Shown piece by piece: positions 7,803 through 14,188 of a DNA stretch of 62,513 nt (positions are counted from its first letter, which is position 1; every line of letters starts with the position of its first letter). A model generated the notes under the pieces. That model did not search any database, had not been told where the DNA came from, and saw only the letters and a list, made by a program, of their open reading frames with translations. The stretch lies in the NCBI RefSeq assembly GCF_021390425.1, contig NZ_JAJUWY010000010.1:1-62513 (forward strand), given 5' to 3'. The position numbers and the translations under genes are program-made. This DNA comes from Lysobacter sp. GX 14042. GTDB taxonomy: Bacteria > Pseudomonadota > Gammaproteobacteria > Xanthomonadales > Xanthomonadaceae.

Positions 7803-9746
<1,944 letters not shown>

Positions 9747-9751
9747 ATCGC

Positions 9752-10411
9752 GTGGCCACCGTCCTCATCGCCGACGACCACCCGCTGTTCCGCGAGGCGT
9801 TGCGGGGGGCGGTCGGCCGCGTGTTGCCGGAGGCCAGGCTGCTGGAGGCCGACAGCGTCGACCGGCTGGAGGACCTGGTGGCGTCCGAGCCGGACGCCGA
9901 CCTGCTCCTGCTGGACCTGAACATGCCCGGTGCCCGGGGCTTCAGCGCCCTGGTGCACCTGCGCGCGCAGTATCCCGAGCTGCCGGTGGTGGTGGTGTCC
10001 GCGCGCGAGGAGCCGGCGGTGATGCGCCGCGCGCTGGACCACGGCGCGATGGGCTTCATTCCCAAGTCCGCCGATCCGGCCACGCTGCGCGAGGCACTTT
10101 CGCGGATCCTCGAAGGCGAGCGCTGGGCGCCGCCGCAGGCCCGGACCGCGGCCGCCGCCGCGGCGGAGGAGCACGAGGCCGCGCGGCGCCTGGCCGAGCT
10201 CACCCCGCAGCAGTTCCGCGTGCTGCAGATGCTCGGCGAGGGCCTGCTCAACAAGCAGATCGCCTATGAGCTGGAGGTCTCCGAGGCGACCATCAAGGCG
10301 CACATGACCGCGATCCTGCGCAAGCTGGGGGCGAGCAACCGCACCCAGGCGGTGCTGATCGCCAGTCGCCTCGCGCTGGACCCGCGCCCCGACGCGCCCT
10401 TCCTTGAGTAA
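9752..10411 (+). CDS. crbR: LuxR/NarL-type response regulator, CrbR/ErdR-like
   Basis: A 219-residue regulator with an N-terminal receiver (ADDH at residues 7-10, phospho-accepting Asp55 in LLLLDLNMPG) and a C-terminal LuxR helix-turn-helix (about residues 145-205, containing EGLLNKQIAYELEVSEATIKAHMTAILRKLG). The GTG at 9752, five bases after the acs stop, is the only start that begins at the receiver. In Vibrio and Pseudomonas the CrbR/ErdR family activates acs and actP in response to acetate; location between acs and a CrbS-like kinase supports this role. Its stop codon lies inside a GTAAGTAA octamer and the last codons form one arm of a hairpin (10391-10446). Confidence 0.88.
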   Translation: MATVLIADDHPLFREALRGAVGRVLPEARLLEADSVDRLEDLVASEPDADLLLLDLNMPGARGFSALVHLRAQYPELPVVVVSAREEPAVMRRALDHGAMGFIPKSADPATLREALSRILEGERWAPPQARTAAAAAAEEHEAARRLAELTPQQFRVLQMLGEGLLNKQIAYELEVSEATIKAHMTAILRKLGASNRTQAVLIASRLALDPRPDAPFLE

Positions 10412-10446
10412 GTAAGGCTCTTCTCCCAATCAAGGGAAAGCGCGCC
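10391..10446 (+). repeat. Degenerate double-stem unit overlapping the crbR stop
   Basis: Arms 10391-10407 and 10430-10446 pair over 14 of 17 positions, one of them G.U. They enclose a 22-nt loop that begins with GTAAGTAA, the octamer that opens the core of the two elements just downstream. The rest of the conserved core is missing. The crbR stop TAA (10409-10411) lies in the octamer. It may be a decayed family member or the crbR terminator. Confidence 0.45.
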
Positions 10447-10457
10447 TTGATACGACG

Positions 10458-10569
10458 CCGGGGCTCCGGGCAGGGGTGCCCTTTAGTCTCCATGTCCCCC
10501 GGCGTCGGCCTGCGGCCGCCACCTCCTCCTTTACTTACGACTAAAGGGCACCCCCACCCGGCGCGCCGG
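10458..10569 (-). repeat. Double-stem element A (minus orientation)
   Basis: Outer arms 10458-10488 and 10539-10569 pair over 31 positions (27 Watson-Crick; two of the other four are G.U on the minus strand). They enclose a 50-nt core (10489-10538). On the minus strand the core starts GTAAGTAAAGGAGGAGG, forms an inner hairpin capped by GCC-gca-GGC, and ends GGGGGACATGGA. The core matches element B at 42 of 50 positions, while the arms differ yet stay self-complementary. It lies between convergent crbR and crbS. Function is unknown: it could be a structured RNA, a non-autonomous element or a bidirectional terminator. Confidence 0.8.
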
Positions 10570-10602
10570 AATACGCGGTGGTTCGAGAAATACCGAAGCC
10601 GA

Positions 10603-10710
10603 GCCCCGTCGCGGCCGGGAGGCCTTTGCGCGTAAGTAAAGGAGGAGGCCTTCGCCGCAGGCGCAGGCCGGGGGACATGGAGCGCAAAGGCCTCCCGGCT
10701 GCGGCGGGGC
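10603..10710 (+). repeat. Double-stem element B (plus orientation)
   Basis: Outer arms 10603-10631 and 10682-10710 form a 29-bp stem with 27 Watson-Crick and two G.U pairs on the plus strand. The 50-nt core (10632-10681) has the same length and the same conserved blocks as element A, in opposite orientation. The inner hairpin (core positions 16-25 with 29-38, loop gca) keeps its pairing through compensatory changes against A. The element ends 17 bases from the crbS stop. Confidence 0.8.
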
Positions 10711-10726
10711 CCGTCAGGAACAAGTC

Positions 10727-13700
10727 TCAGGGCGCGTGCCCCGCCGCGTGGTGGCTGCTGCGTGCGGCCAGGAACGCCCGCAGCGAGGCGGGCTTCACCG
10801 GTTTGGTGAGCACCCGGTAGCCGCGCGCTTGGGCCTCGCGCTTGAGCGTGTCGCTGCCATCGGCGGTCACCAGCGCCCCGGGTACCCGCGGGCCGCGCTC
10901 GCGCAGCGCATCCAGCGCATCCAGCCCATCCATCCGGTCATGCAGGTGGTAGTCGACCAGCAGCACGTCCGGCTCCCCGGCCATGCGCTCCAGCGCCTCG
11001 TCCACGGTGGCCGCCTGCAGCACCACGATTCCCCAGCGGCCCAGCAGGTTGGCCATGCCGGCGAGGATGTCGGCGTCGTTGTCCACGCACAGCACCCGCA
11101 TGCCCTCCAGCCCGTCCGGCAGCGCCGTGGGGGAGGCCGGGCCGGGAAGCGGGGCATCGACCCCCGCCGCCCGCGGCACGCGGATCGAGAACATGCTGCC
11201 GTGGCCGCGCCGCGAACGCACGTTGAGCGGGTGGTGGAGCACGTTGGAAATGCGCTGGCAGATCGACAGCCCCAGGCCCAGTCCCTGGGCACCCCAGCCA
11301 TCGGGGTCCTCGATGCGGAAGAACTCCTCGAAGATCTGCTGCAGGTGGTACTCCGGGATGCCCGGGCCGGTATCCCAGACCTGCAGCTCGACCGAAGCGC
11401 CGCGGATCCGCGCGGTCAGCAGCACCCGGCCGTTGCGGGTGTGGCGCAGCGCGTTGGCCATGAAGTTCTGCAGCACCCGGCGCAGCAACGGACGGTCGCT
11501 GCGTACCGGCAACGGACGGGCGATCACCCGCAGGCCCAGCCCGCGCGCAGCGGCCAGCGGGGCGTACTGGGCGGCGAGTTCGGCCAGCAGTTCGGCGGCG
11601 TCGAAGTCCGACAGCTGCGGCTGCAGCGCGCCGGCATCCAGCCGGGAGACGTCGAGCAGGCCCTCCAGCAACTCCTCGGCGGCGCGCAGCGAGGTGTCCA
11701 CGCGCTCGGCCAGGTGGCGCTGCTCGTCGGCGCTGCCGCTCTCGCGCAGGGCCGAGGTGAACAGGCGGGCGGCGTTGAGCGGCTGCAGCACGTCGTGGCT
11801 GACCGCGGCCAGGAAGCGGGTCCGCGAGGCCTGCGCCGCCTCCGCCTCGCGGGTGCGGATGGCCACGCGCTGCTCGAGGGTCTCGTTGACCTCGCGCAAC
11901 TCGTCCTCCACGCGCTTGTACTCGGTCACGTCGCTGTAGCTGGTGACGTAGCCACCGCCGGGCAGCGGCTGGCCGCGCATCTCGACCACCTGTCCGGAGG
12001 CGCGCACCCGCTCGAAGACATGCGGGGTGCCGGCGCGCATGTGGGCGATGCGCTTGTCGACTTCCGCCTGCACGTCCGGGCGTTCGCCCAGCTCGCCGCG
12101 CCGTGCGTTGTAGCGGATCAGGTCGGCTACCGGGCGGCCGACGTAGAGCATGCCGTCGGGGTAGTCGAACATCCGCGCGTAACGCAGGTTCCAGGACACC
12201 AGGCGCATGTCGGCATCGACCACGCTCACCCCCTGGTCGAGGTTGTCCAGCGTGGCCGAAAGGATGCCGCGGTCGAAGCGCAACTCCAGTCCGGCCTCGT
12301 CGAGCACCGCCACCACCTCGGCCACGTCCATGCCCGAGCCCTTCAGCGCACTGGTCATCACCAGCCGCGCGGAGGCGGCGCCGATGGCGGCGGCCATCAG
12401 GCGTTCGGTGAACTGCGCCCAGTTGCGGTCGCTCGGGCGCGAGGGCTGCAGCTGCCCTCCGCCGGCGCGCGCGTGGTCGGCGAAGGCGCGCCGCGCGGTG
12501 GCATCGCCGACGAAGCGGCCGGCGAGGGCAAGCAGGTCGCCTACCTGCATCGAGGGATGGGGCGTGTGGCTCCCGGCCGGCTGCCCACCGCTGGCATAGG
12601 GATCCAGGAACGGCGCGGTCCGCAGACGCTCCTCGAAGCCCGGCCGCCAGCGCGCCGAGACCAGGAACAGGGCACCGATGTTGGCCAGCAACGACCAGAA
12701 GGTGCCATGGGTCAGCGGGTCCCAGCCGGCCAGCCCGAACAGCTGCTGCGGCCGCAGCCAGTCGATGCCGAACGGGCCGTGCAGCACCCAGGCATCGTCC
12801 ATCCAGCCGGCCTCGGTGAGGGTGGGCAGCAGCAGGGTGTAGGTCCACAGCGTGAAGCCCAGCAAAAGCCCGGTTTCCATGCCCTGGCGGCTGGCGCCGC
12901 GCCAGTACAGCCCGCCGATCAGTGCCGGGGCGAACTGCGCCACCGCGGCGAAGGACATCAGTCCGTAGGAGGCCAGGGTGGTCTCGCTGCTGCTGACCCG
13001 GTAATAGCCCCAGGCCAGCGCGGCGAAGCAGACGATCGCGATGCGGCGGATCCACAGCACCGTGGAGGCGAAGTTCCCGCCGCGCCGCTGGGCCCAGCCG
13101 CGCGCCAGCAGCGGCGGCATCACCAGGTCGTTGGAGACCATCGTCGCCAGCGCCACGCTGGACACGATCACCATGCCGGTGGCGGCCGAGAACCCGCCCA
13201 CGTAAGCGAACAGCGCCAGCAGGTTGCGGCCCTCCGACAGTGGCAGCCCGAGCACCAGGGTGTCCGCGCCCGCGCCTGCCCCGGCGACGCCCGGCACGGC
13301 CAGCCCCGCGGCGGCGATCGGCAGCACCGCCAGCGAGACCAGCGCCAGATAGCCGCCGAACATCCATCGCGCCCGGCGGATGTCGCGGACGTCCGTACAC
13401 TCCACCACCGCCACGTGGAACTGGCGCGGCAGGCACAGGATCGCGGTGAAGGCGAGCAGGGTCTGGCCGATGAAACCCGCCGGCACGCCCTGGGAGACCA
13501 GCGCCGCGGTCGCCTCGGCCAGCGGCAGCTCGCGCGCGCTGAACCAGAACATCGCGAACACGCCCACGAACACCAGCGCCACCAGCTTGACCAGCGATTC
13601 CAGCGCGATCGCCAGCATCATCCCCGGGCGGTGCTCGGTGGCATCGACCTGGCGGGTGCCGTACAGGATCGCGAACAGCGCCATCAGCACCGCCACGTAC

Positions 13701-14188
13701 AGCGCCGGGTCCCCGACGCTGGCCAGCAGCGGGTCGCGCCCGCCCAGCACCTGCAGGCTCAGCGCCACCGCCTTGTATTGCAGCGCCAGGTAGGGGACCG
13801 CGGCGATCAGCGCGATCAGCGAGACCAGCGCCGCCAGCCGCTGGGTGCGGCCGTAGCGGGCGGCGATGAAGTCGGCGATGGAGACCGTGTTCTGGTGCTG
13901 CGCCACCAGCGCCAGGCGCTCCAGGATCCGCCAGCCGAACAGCAGCATCAGCAGCGGGCCGAGATAGATGGCGAAGTAGCCGATGCCGGTGCGGGTGGCG
14001 GTGCCCACCGCGCCGTAGAAGGTCCACGACGAGCAATACACCGCAAGCGACAGGCTGTAGACCAGCGGCCGCAGCCAGGTGCCGCCGGCGCGCATGTGCA
14101 CCGGATGCCGGTCACCCCACCACGCGACCGCGAACAGCAGGGCCGCGTAGCCCAGCGATACCAGCAGCAGGATCCAGCCCGGCAGCAT
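10727..14188 (-). CDS. crbS: Hybrid sensor kinase with SLC5 transporter domain, CrbS/MxtR-like
   Basis: A 1153-residue membrane kinase. Order of parts: a sodium:solute-symporter domain of about 13 membrane segments (residues 1-500), a linker of STAC type (about 520-620), a PAS domain (about 640-740), a coiled coil, HisKA with phospho-accepting His in AAVSHDVLQPLNAAR (about residue 800), an HATPase domain with NALRH and GLGLGLSICQRI boxes, and a C-terminal receiver from residue 1029 with phospho-Asp1079 in LLVDYHLHD. This plan is that of CrbS (Vibrio) and MxtR (Pseudomonas), which work with CrbR/ErdR on acs and actP. It is convergent with crbR, not co-directional. The nearest upstream gene, cysK, reads the same way. 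Confidence 0.88.
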   Translation of the reverse strand: MLPGWILLLVSLGYAALLFAVAWWGDRHPVHMRAGGTWLRPLVYSLSLAVYCSSWTFYGAVGTATRTGIGYFAIYLGPLLMLLFGWRILERLALVAQHQNTVSIADFIAARYGRTQRLAALVSLIALIAAVPYLALQYKAVALSLQVLGGRDPLLASVGDPALYVAVLMALFAILYGTRQVDATEHRPGMMLAIALESLVKLVALVFVGVFAMFWFSARELPLAEATAALVSQGVPAGFIGQTLLAFTAILCLPRQFHVAVVECTDVRDIRRARWMFGGYLALVSLAVLPIAAAGLAVPGVAGAGAGADTLVLGLPLSEGRNLLALFAYVGGFSAATGMVIVSSVALATMVSNDLVMPPLLARGWAQRRGGNFASTVLWIRRIAIVCFAALAWGYYRVSSSETTLASYGLMSFAAVAQFAPALIGGLYWRGASRQGMETGLLLGFTLWTYTLLLPTLTEAGWMDDAWVLHGPFGIDWLRPQQLFGLAGWDPLTHGTFWSLLANIGALFLVSARWRPGFEERLRTAPFLDPYASGGQPAGSHTPHPSMQVGDLLALAGRFVGDATARRAFADHARAGGGQLQPSRPSDRNWAQFTERLMAAAIGAASARLVMTSALKGSGMDVAEVVAVLDEAGLELRFDRGILSATLDNLDQGVSVVDADMRLVSWNLRYARMFDYPDGMLYVGRPVADLIRYNARRGELGERPDVQAEVDKRIAHMRAGTPHVFERVRASGQVVEMRGQPLPGGGYVTSYSDVTEYKRVEDELREVNETLEQRVAIRTREAEAAQASRTRFLAAVSHDVLQPLNAARLFTSALRESGSADEQRHLAERVDTSLRAAEELLEGLLDVSRLDAGALQPQLSDFDAAELLAELAAQYAPLAAARGLGLRVIARPLPVRSDRPLLRRVLQNFMANALRHTRNGRVLLTARIRGASVELQVWDTGPGIPEYHLQQIFEEFFRIEDPDGWGAQGLGLGLSICQRISNVLHHPLNVRSRRGHGSMFSIRVPRAAGVDAPLPGPASPTALPDGLEGMRVLCVDNDADILAGMANLLGRWGIVVLQAATVDEALERMAGEPDVLLVDYHLHDRMDGLDALDALRERGPRVPGALVTADGSDTLKREAQARGYRVLTKPVKPASLRAFLAARSSHHAAGHAP

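Follow-up and report, generated by a model that had tools for sequence, protein, structure and literature searches.

Head-to-head pairs of long hairpins with a covarying internal loop in Lysobacter sp. GX 14042 and other proteobacteria: an apparently undescribed family of dispersed elements with REPIN-like architecture

Integron attC sites fold as strand-specific, single-stranded hairpins with a variable stem, as the elements reported here probably do, and ERIC or RU-1 sequences are enterobacterial and 127 bp long, in which they differ from the present elements. Bottom-strand folding of attC is mentioned in the accessible part of one source (PMC8266576), and ERIC or RU-1 is presented, in the available part of its description, as a small mobile sequence of multiple intergenic regions, a likeness to the elements considered here (PMC2759123). 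REPINs come closest in architecture. As far as excerpts of the relevant papers go, what replicates is proposed to be their inverted doublet (PMC3116915), REP dimers are often heterodimers (PMC3733652), and processing of the REP strand by the E. coli TnpA-REP depends on a tag and a bulge (PMC8266576). CGTC-tagged palindromes share three properties with the present family, being dispersed, forming heterodimers in several of their own families and having no known dedicated transposase; in the portion of the source available they differ as short hairpins with CGTC at one end and without an internal-loop core of this kind (PMC3733652). The BRE (Beta-proteobacterial repeat element) of Bordetella, compared here by its partly accessible description only, is likewise GC-rich and mostly intergenic and is reported from Bordetella, Comamonadaceae and one Rhodocyclaceae genome, but it is about 90 bp long and sometimes tandem (PMC3110155).

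The window analysed is the whole stretch of 62,513 nt from Lysobacter sp. GX 14042 (contig NZ_JAJUWY010000010.1). Two convergent genes, named from their sequences as a LuxR-type response-regulator gene (9590-10411, plus strand) and a sensor-kinase gene (10727-14188, minus strand), leave a block of 315 nt between their stop codons (10412-10726), and two long hairpin elements, A and B, form the inner part of this block (10457-10713; Table 1). The bounds first given for them, 10458-10710, were slightly too narrow.

Table 1. Coordinates of the parts of the block between the two stop codons. R1 is a covariance model derived from a set of 39 diverse copies chosen by exact core pattern; A and B are both among these 39, and their R1 scores are those of building-set members.
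Feature	Position	Strand	Evidence or remark
Element A, whole covariance-model match	10457..10570	-	R1 96.9 bits, E 2.0e-18 (own genome)
A, outer stem 5' arm	10539..10569	-	pairs with 10458-10488
A, outer stem 3' arm	10458..10488	-	pairs with 10539-10569
A, conserved internal loop, 5' strand (GUAAGUAAAGGAGGA)	10524..10538	-	core pattern, alignment, loop covariation
A, conserved internal loop, 3' strand (GGGGGACAUGGA)	10489..10500	-	core pattern, alignment, loop covariation
A, inner hairpin P2	10501..10523	-	folding, pair covariation
Spacer between A and B 5' ends	10571..10599	.	sequence
Element B, whole covariance-model match	10600..10713	+	R1 96.3 bits, E 2.7e-18 (own genome)
B, outer stem 5' arm	10603..10631	+	folding, arm pairing
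B, conserved internal loop, 5' strand	10632..10646	+	core pattern, alignment, loop covariation
B, inner hairpin P2	10647..10669	+	folding, pair covariation
B, conserved internal loop, 3' strand	10670..10681	+	core pattern, alignment, loop covariation
B, outer stem 3' arm	10682..10710	+	folding, arm pairing
A-side outer end	10412..10456	.	adjoins LuxR-type gene stop codon
B-side outer end (TCAGG..)	10714..10726	.	adjoins sensor-kinase stop codon (other strand)

The comparison of A with B agrees with what the preliminary description had reported. Both cores are 50 nt long, with the same base at 42 positions; in the arms, pairs 2, 3, 4, 10, 12 and 16 from the core have changed on both sides with pairing kept; and core pairs 19-35 and 22-32 carry double-sided changes around a retained GCA loop. 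Further arm pairs altered on both sides and still paired are 17, 18, 20, 26, 28 and 31. Over 29 arm pairs, 14 are the same in A and B, 2 differ on one side, 11 differ on two sides and 2 fail to pair in A, in B or in both. RNA folding gives z-scores against shuffles of -6.7 (A) and -9.7 (B), with none of 200 shuffles as good, and the core-strand fold of both elements is unchanged under DNA parameters. Judged by eye, the A-side outer end resembles the A-side ends of the Luteimonas copies L015, L043 and L094 (TATCAA..CTTTCCCTTGATTGGGAGAAGA), and the B-side outer end is shorter in the window than its Luteimonas counterparts. Searches of the organism's own genome with the exact pattern and with R1 return this pair as the sole occurrence.

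The elements are widespread outside this genome. Scanning genome_contigs (one genome per species, 84,980 species) with the two loop strands as an exact pattern yielded 101 stretches with 113 copies, which with A and B make 115 rows. These copies lie in 29 other genomes, by title Rhodocyclales, Burkholderiales and genera, uncultured beta- and gammaproteobacteria, Ca. Nitricoxidireducens, and a Luteimonas. Spread is multi-copy: across the 29 carriers, R1 matches run from at least 6 to at least 112 per genome, counts that may be too low with at most 131 candidates scored in each. The preliminary description had named, as the expected support, numerous copies in which cores are conserved and arms covary, and the covariance-model search found such copies across genomes. 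The distribution is also patchy. R1 elements occur in 3 of the 40 genomes sampled from the window's family (centre genome included), in 4 of 41 of the family of Ca. Nitricoxidireducens bremensis (G302; centre genome and one more known carrier included) and in 15 of 39 of the Roseateles depolymerans family (again with the centre and one more known carrier), while 3 of 369 genomes of the window's class carry one under strict filters (E 1e-8, 10 candidates per genome). The prevalence of 1/297 given by the exact pattern is too low, since G010 and G028, with 0 by pattern, have 13 and 17 R1 matches. Nine congeners all lack the exact pattern, and one of them, G003, searched with R1 as well, has none.

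Databases of known motifs and of mobile DNA returned little. At gathering score Rfam has 0 matches in the window, and at relaxed threshold the best (E 0.16, 21.7 bits against a gathering score of 55) is at chance level. Viral contigs have 0 matches to the exact pattern; phage DNA, searched with the window unit only, has no match to it, nor do plasmids, where one weak partial match to a G302 unit was found. The literature searched holds no recognisable description of the family, although the sequences of BRE (PMC3110155) and of the Burkholderiales-1 motif (PMC2864571) are not in the readable text; the latter stands without an Rfam accession in a motif table in the accessible part of its source (PMC2864571). 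Among literature text containing core-sequence words, the matches listed are unrelated by title. The hairpins are thus members of a widespread, cross-class and apparently undescribed family of dispersed elements.

The unit of this family is the head-to-head pair, which the preliminary description had overlooked. With a relaxed pattern, all 87 of 87 neighbours within 400 bp stand head-to-head, in minus-plus order, a count in which two G302 loci figure twice (L008 = L170, L011 = L156; dropped from the arm comparison). Core-to-core gaps cluster at 103 nt, the commonest value of the other pairs, against 93 nt in the window. Lone elements number 54 of 228; for 15 of these a locus end is no more than 400 bp away. 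In a sample from the Roseateles family, 50 matches hand-picked by eye as close, 22 of 24 neighbours at 400 bp or less keep the minus-plus order, and in G302 a head-to-head pair is present at 37 of 40 loci. The two partners are rarely alike: 5' arms are less than 60% identical in 74 of 84 pairs. Within G302 they fall into two types, 93% (type 1) and 85% (type 2) identical within a type and 32% between types. Arms therefore travel with the core inside a genome, as in ordinary repeat copies, and vary freely only between types and species. Of the original proposal of selection for structure with free arm sequence, the first half stands, since stems and loop covary, and the second holds between species and arm types, not within one genome; the outcome that had been named as counting against it, arms conserved together with cores, is seen in part, inside G302.

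Several variants of the unit were observed. Spacers of Luteimonas DXCY (L013, L043, L056, L074, L078, L094, L095) contain a second repeat, GTAGGTCGGGGCTACGCCCCCGAC-like, which resembles a GTAG-tagged REP. In Burkholderiales JACPVA (L040, L042, L051, L070, L080, L096) the 3' loop strand of one partner holds about 70 extra nt that form a strong hairpin, and in L083 the 5' side carries an insertion. Single elements of JAAYXJ (L006, L079) combine the 5' arm of one type with the 3' arm of the other and look like pairs reduced by deletion to a single core. Lone elements of Comamonadaceae JAAFIY (L028, L054, L103) lie in a mosaic repeat of several hundred bp with spurious ORFs, possibly related to BRE.

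Both the stems and the internal loop covary. Alignment A1, made by MAFFT without fitting to structure, has double-sided compensated changes in 26 of 28 predicted pairs; 88.5% of its pairing cells are paired, as against 57.1% when shuffled and 34.6-47.2% when slid, and its covariation score is 0.744 (control, 0.193). When the arms of 33 non-redundant copies (of 104) are anchored on the core, pairing is 91.3% versus 42.7-46.4% for slid arms. Conservation of the loop in A1 is by selection of copies, because these were picked via the exact core pattern. Loop covariation was counted over elements found with a relaxed pattern plus paired arms, in which part of the loop is still fixed by the pattern. 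Among 125 distinct elements from 31 genomes, positions 4 x 10' are A-T in 113, G-C in 11 and C-C in 1, and positions 11 x 5' are G.G in 110, A.T in 14 and A.G in 1; positions 12 x 4', in 125 distinct elements, are A.G in 101, A.A in 12, G.A in 11 and C.G in 1. One canonical and two partly non-canonical contacts of this purine-rich loop thus vary in concert, as expected of a folded motif. Alignment and covariation alike support the internal loop as the conserved part of the element. Five Rhodocyclales have a unit in common at fadA-fadB; its flanks match those of L062 at 86-91% identity and its arms differ among the five species via compensated changes, so some copies are old and kept.

The fold is specific to one strand. 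With 12 of the 115 rows discarded as truncated, the first 24 arm pairs of the remaining 103 copies show, on the core strand, 140 G-U pairs against 15 A-C mismatches. An A-C on the core strand is a G-U on the opposite strand, and an excess of this size therefore points to selection on the core strand alone, as RNA or single-stranded DNA. The same counts bear on passive palindrome correction, in which template switching in inverted repeats would copy one arm onto the other and structure would be under no selection. That process could account for arms that are rewritten yet almost perfectly paired, even in the orthologous fadA-fadB copies; the preliminary description, too, had suggested that the arms may be re-made from one another. 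Correction should, however, neither favour G-U over A-C on one strand nor alter loop positions jointly, and it should erase the mismatched loop, which is conserved instead; as the whole explanation it is very improbable. The elements probably act as folded single strands.

The two partners of operonic units bear on whether the single strand is RNA or DNA. In G302, 36 units were taken from 36 of 40 loci (no partner was matched at L165, L185 and L192, and L166, which has two pairs, is excluded). In 29 of these units both flanking genes run the same way, type 1 being sense and type 2 antisense to the mRNA; another 3 are oriented the other way round, 4 have convergent neighbours and 0 divergent ones. 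For 53 units from scan loci and the window, the context is co-directional in 40, convergent in 9, divergent in 1 and readable on one side in 3; gene strands in both counts come from a heuristic of GC by codon position, without annotation. Distinct one-sided changes in G302 give G-U to A-C ratios of 12:0 for type 2 (p 0.0005) and 10:4 for type 1 (p 0.18, not significant), with the reservation that G302 copies are related and even distinct changes are not fully independent. The strand bias is clear, then, for all copies together and for type 2. Since type 2 is antisense, selection acting on the operon mRNA does not suffice as an explanation.

A structured RNA element on the core strand, such as a protein-binding site, an operon processing or stability element, or a small RNA, is possible but on balance doubtful. 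The head-to-head pair would then guarantee one sense copy whichever way the locus is transcribed. In its strong covariation and in its conserved loop, where contacts are partly non-canonical, the element does resemble an RNA motif, the type 1 hairpin of G302 is sense and upstream of the next start codon in 29 of 36 units, and the fadA-fadB unit is kept in 5 species; the loop strand AAAGGAGG (10525-10538 and 10632-10645 in the window) moreover resembles a Shine-Dalgarno sequence and would be complementary to the 16S rRNA 3' end. Type 2 nevertheless shows the clearest core-strand wobble bias while antisense to the same mRNAs, no Rfam match exists, and the orientation bias can follow from a ribosome-binding-like sequence at one unit end. 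In the window, moreover, the unit lies between convergent genes, so no partner precedes a start codon. The structured RNA with an active loop that was originally envisaged is accordingly not shown, as the antisense partner in operons keeps the bias. RNA transcribed from both strands is a possible reading; folded single-stranded DNA is preferred over an mRNA element, mainly because the type 2 bias is antisense.

Units appear as blocks that relatives lack. Orthologous stop codons in four congeners (L109-L112) are 9 nt apart, against 315 nt in the window. At moaD-moaE, G302 has 351 nt from the moaD stop to the moaE match, whereas 13 of 14 relatives have 2-25 nt and 1 of 14 has 117 nt; the moaD end was found in these 14 of 29 relatives' loci, the others, mostly on the opposite strand, being left out, and 0 of the 29 loci has an R1 element. 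By eye, G302 units often run from a stop codon to the GGAGCAACTGAC-ATG of the next gene, their downstream end is a Shine-Dalgarno-like sequence, and a similar end is found at fadA-fadB in other species. Also by eye, Rhodocyclales units bear ATGAAAC-like inverted motifs at their outer ends, and several Luteimonas copies end beside terminator-like sequences. Luteimonas units such as those at L015, L020, L032, L043, L074 and L094 frequently terminate in GGAGAAGAACC-like sequence adjoining a T or A run, and several of them carry what looks by eye like a terminator-like hairpin. Copy number, patchiness and sites empty in relatives together suggest that the units are or have been mobile; no excision or insertion event was seen.

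If they are mobile, the hairpins might be passengers of a MITE, a non-autonomous derivative of a DDE transposon with terminal inverted repeats. Outer ends conserved within G302, the ATGAAAC-like inverted motifs and the presence of the unit as a block would fit such an origin. It is nonetheless unlikely. An apparent 8-bp target-site duplication at the moaD-moaE unit did not generalise: among 36 G302 units, 16 have both sides readable and 1 of these has an identical duplication (shuffle mean 1.3). Across genomes, moreover, conservation is strongest in the internal loop, and the 6.8 kb interval between two lone elements (L091), considered as a large composite element, was rejected as such, with no transposase family among the 10 ORFs scanned against Pfam; 5 of the 10 match transport, AMP-binding or redox families and 5 match none.

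The search for an enzyme gave no dedicated candidate. Y1_Tnp has no match in the window's own genome; it matches in 17 of 29 carriers and in none of the other 12, which include those with at least 112 and at least 88 R1 matches, though many carriers are draft assemblies from which a Y1_Tnp gene could be missing. An element lies within 1.5 kb of 1 of 27 Y1 loci. A RAYT as dedicated enzyme is therefore unsupported. All-against-all comparison of ORFs at loci of many genomes revealed no shared mobilisation gene near elements among the 14 clusters listed; those recognised by eye are host genes (e.g. fadA/fadB-like, transport), and others are unnamed.

Likeness to REPINs is therefore best taken as one of architecture, not of membership. 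Like REPINs, as described in the available parts of the sources, the present units are dispersed, extragenic, inverted hairpin pairs, often heterodimers, which would fold single-stranded, one of the two strands being recognised (PMC3116915, PMC3733652, PMC8266576), and in all 87 pairs two palindromes are inverted as a unit. Unlike REPINs, they consist of hairpins of about 112 nt (REPs have 20-40 bp), their conserved part is a covarying internal loop instead of a GTAG tag with a palindrome, and no RAYT association was found. Near the stem base, GTAG occurs in 6 of 106 copies and GGAG in 14 of 106, and no REP-type tag is present. The preliminary description had called the arrangement the reverse of REPINs; this is right for the place of the conserved part and wrong for the head-to-head pair, which is REPIN-like. 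In contrast to attC, with its R'' and R' boxes near the hairpin ends, the arms of A1 (32 nt each side) have no invariant column.

Weighing these observations, we put at about an even chance the reading that A and B form the opposite ends of a single REPIN-like miniature mobile element that folds as single-stranded DNA. Its two non-identical hairpins of about 112 nt stand head-to-head, and each DNA strand bears one correct, outward-pointing hairpin. Where the DNA becomes single-stranded, a long stem would form, topped by a fixed purine-rich internal loop with non-canonical contacts and, above it, a short hairpin; the loop may be recognised by an enzyme acting in trans that mobilises the unit, and the unit would insert or survive at gene ends. 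More tentatively, this could be an undescribed kind of single-strand mobility, in which a RAYT-unrelated enzyme reads the partly non-canonical loop at both inverted ends and Rhodocyclales units carry their own ribosome-binding site, so that they can enter the stop-start junctions of operons. Lone elements, the lack of a general target-site duplication, the lack of a Y1_Tnp link and the non-significant wobble bias of type 1 taken alone count against this reading, and the fadA-fadB unit, its arms rewritten by compensation in five species, suggests maintenance in place and not only mobility.

The family matters as a set of folded elements with very strong covariation, extending to the internal loop, that crosses classes and is without an Rfam match. 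It raises a directly testable question: which protein reads the loop. If the elements work as RNA, they would be a new widespread intergenic RNA motif. If they work as single-stranded DNA, they would be a second kind of REPIN-like element, for which RAYT is not needed.
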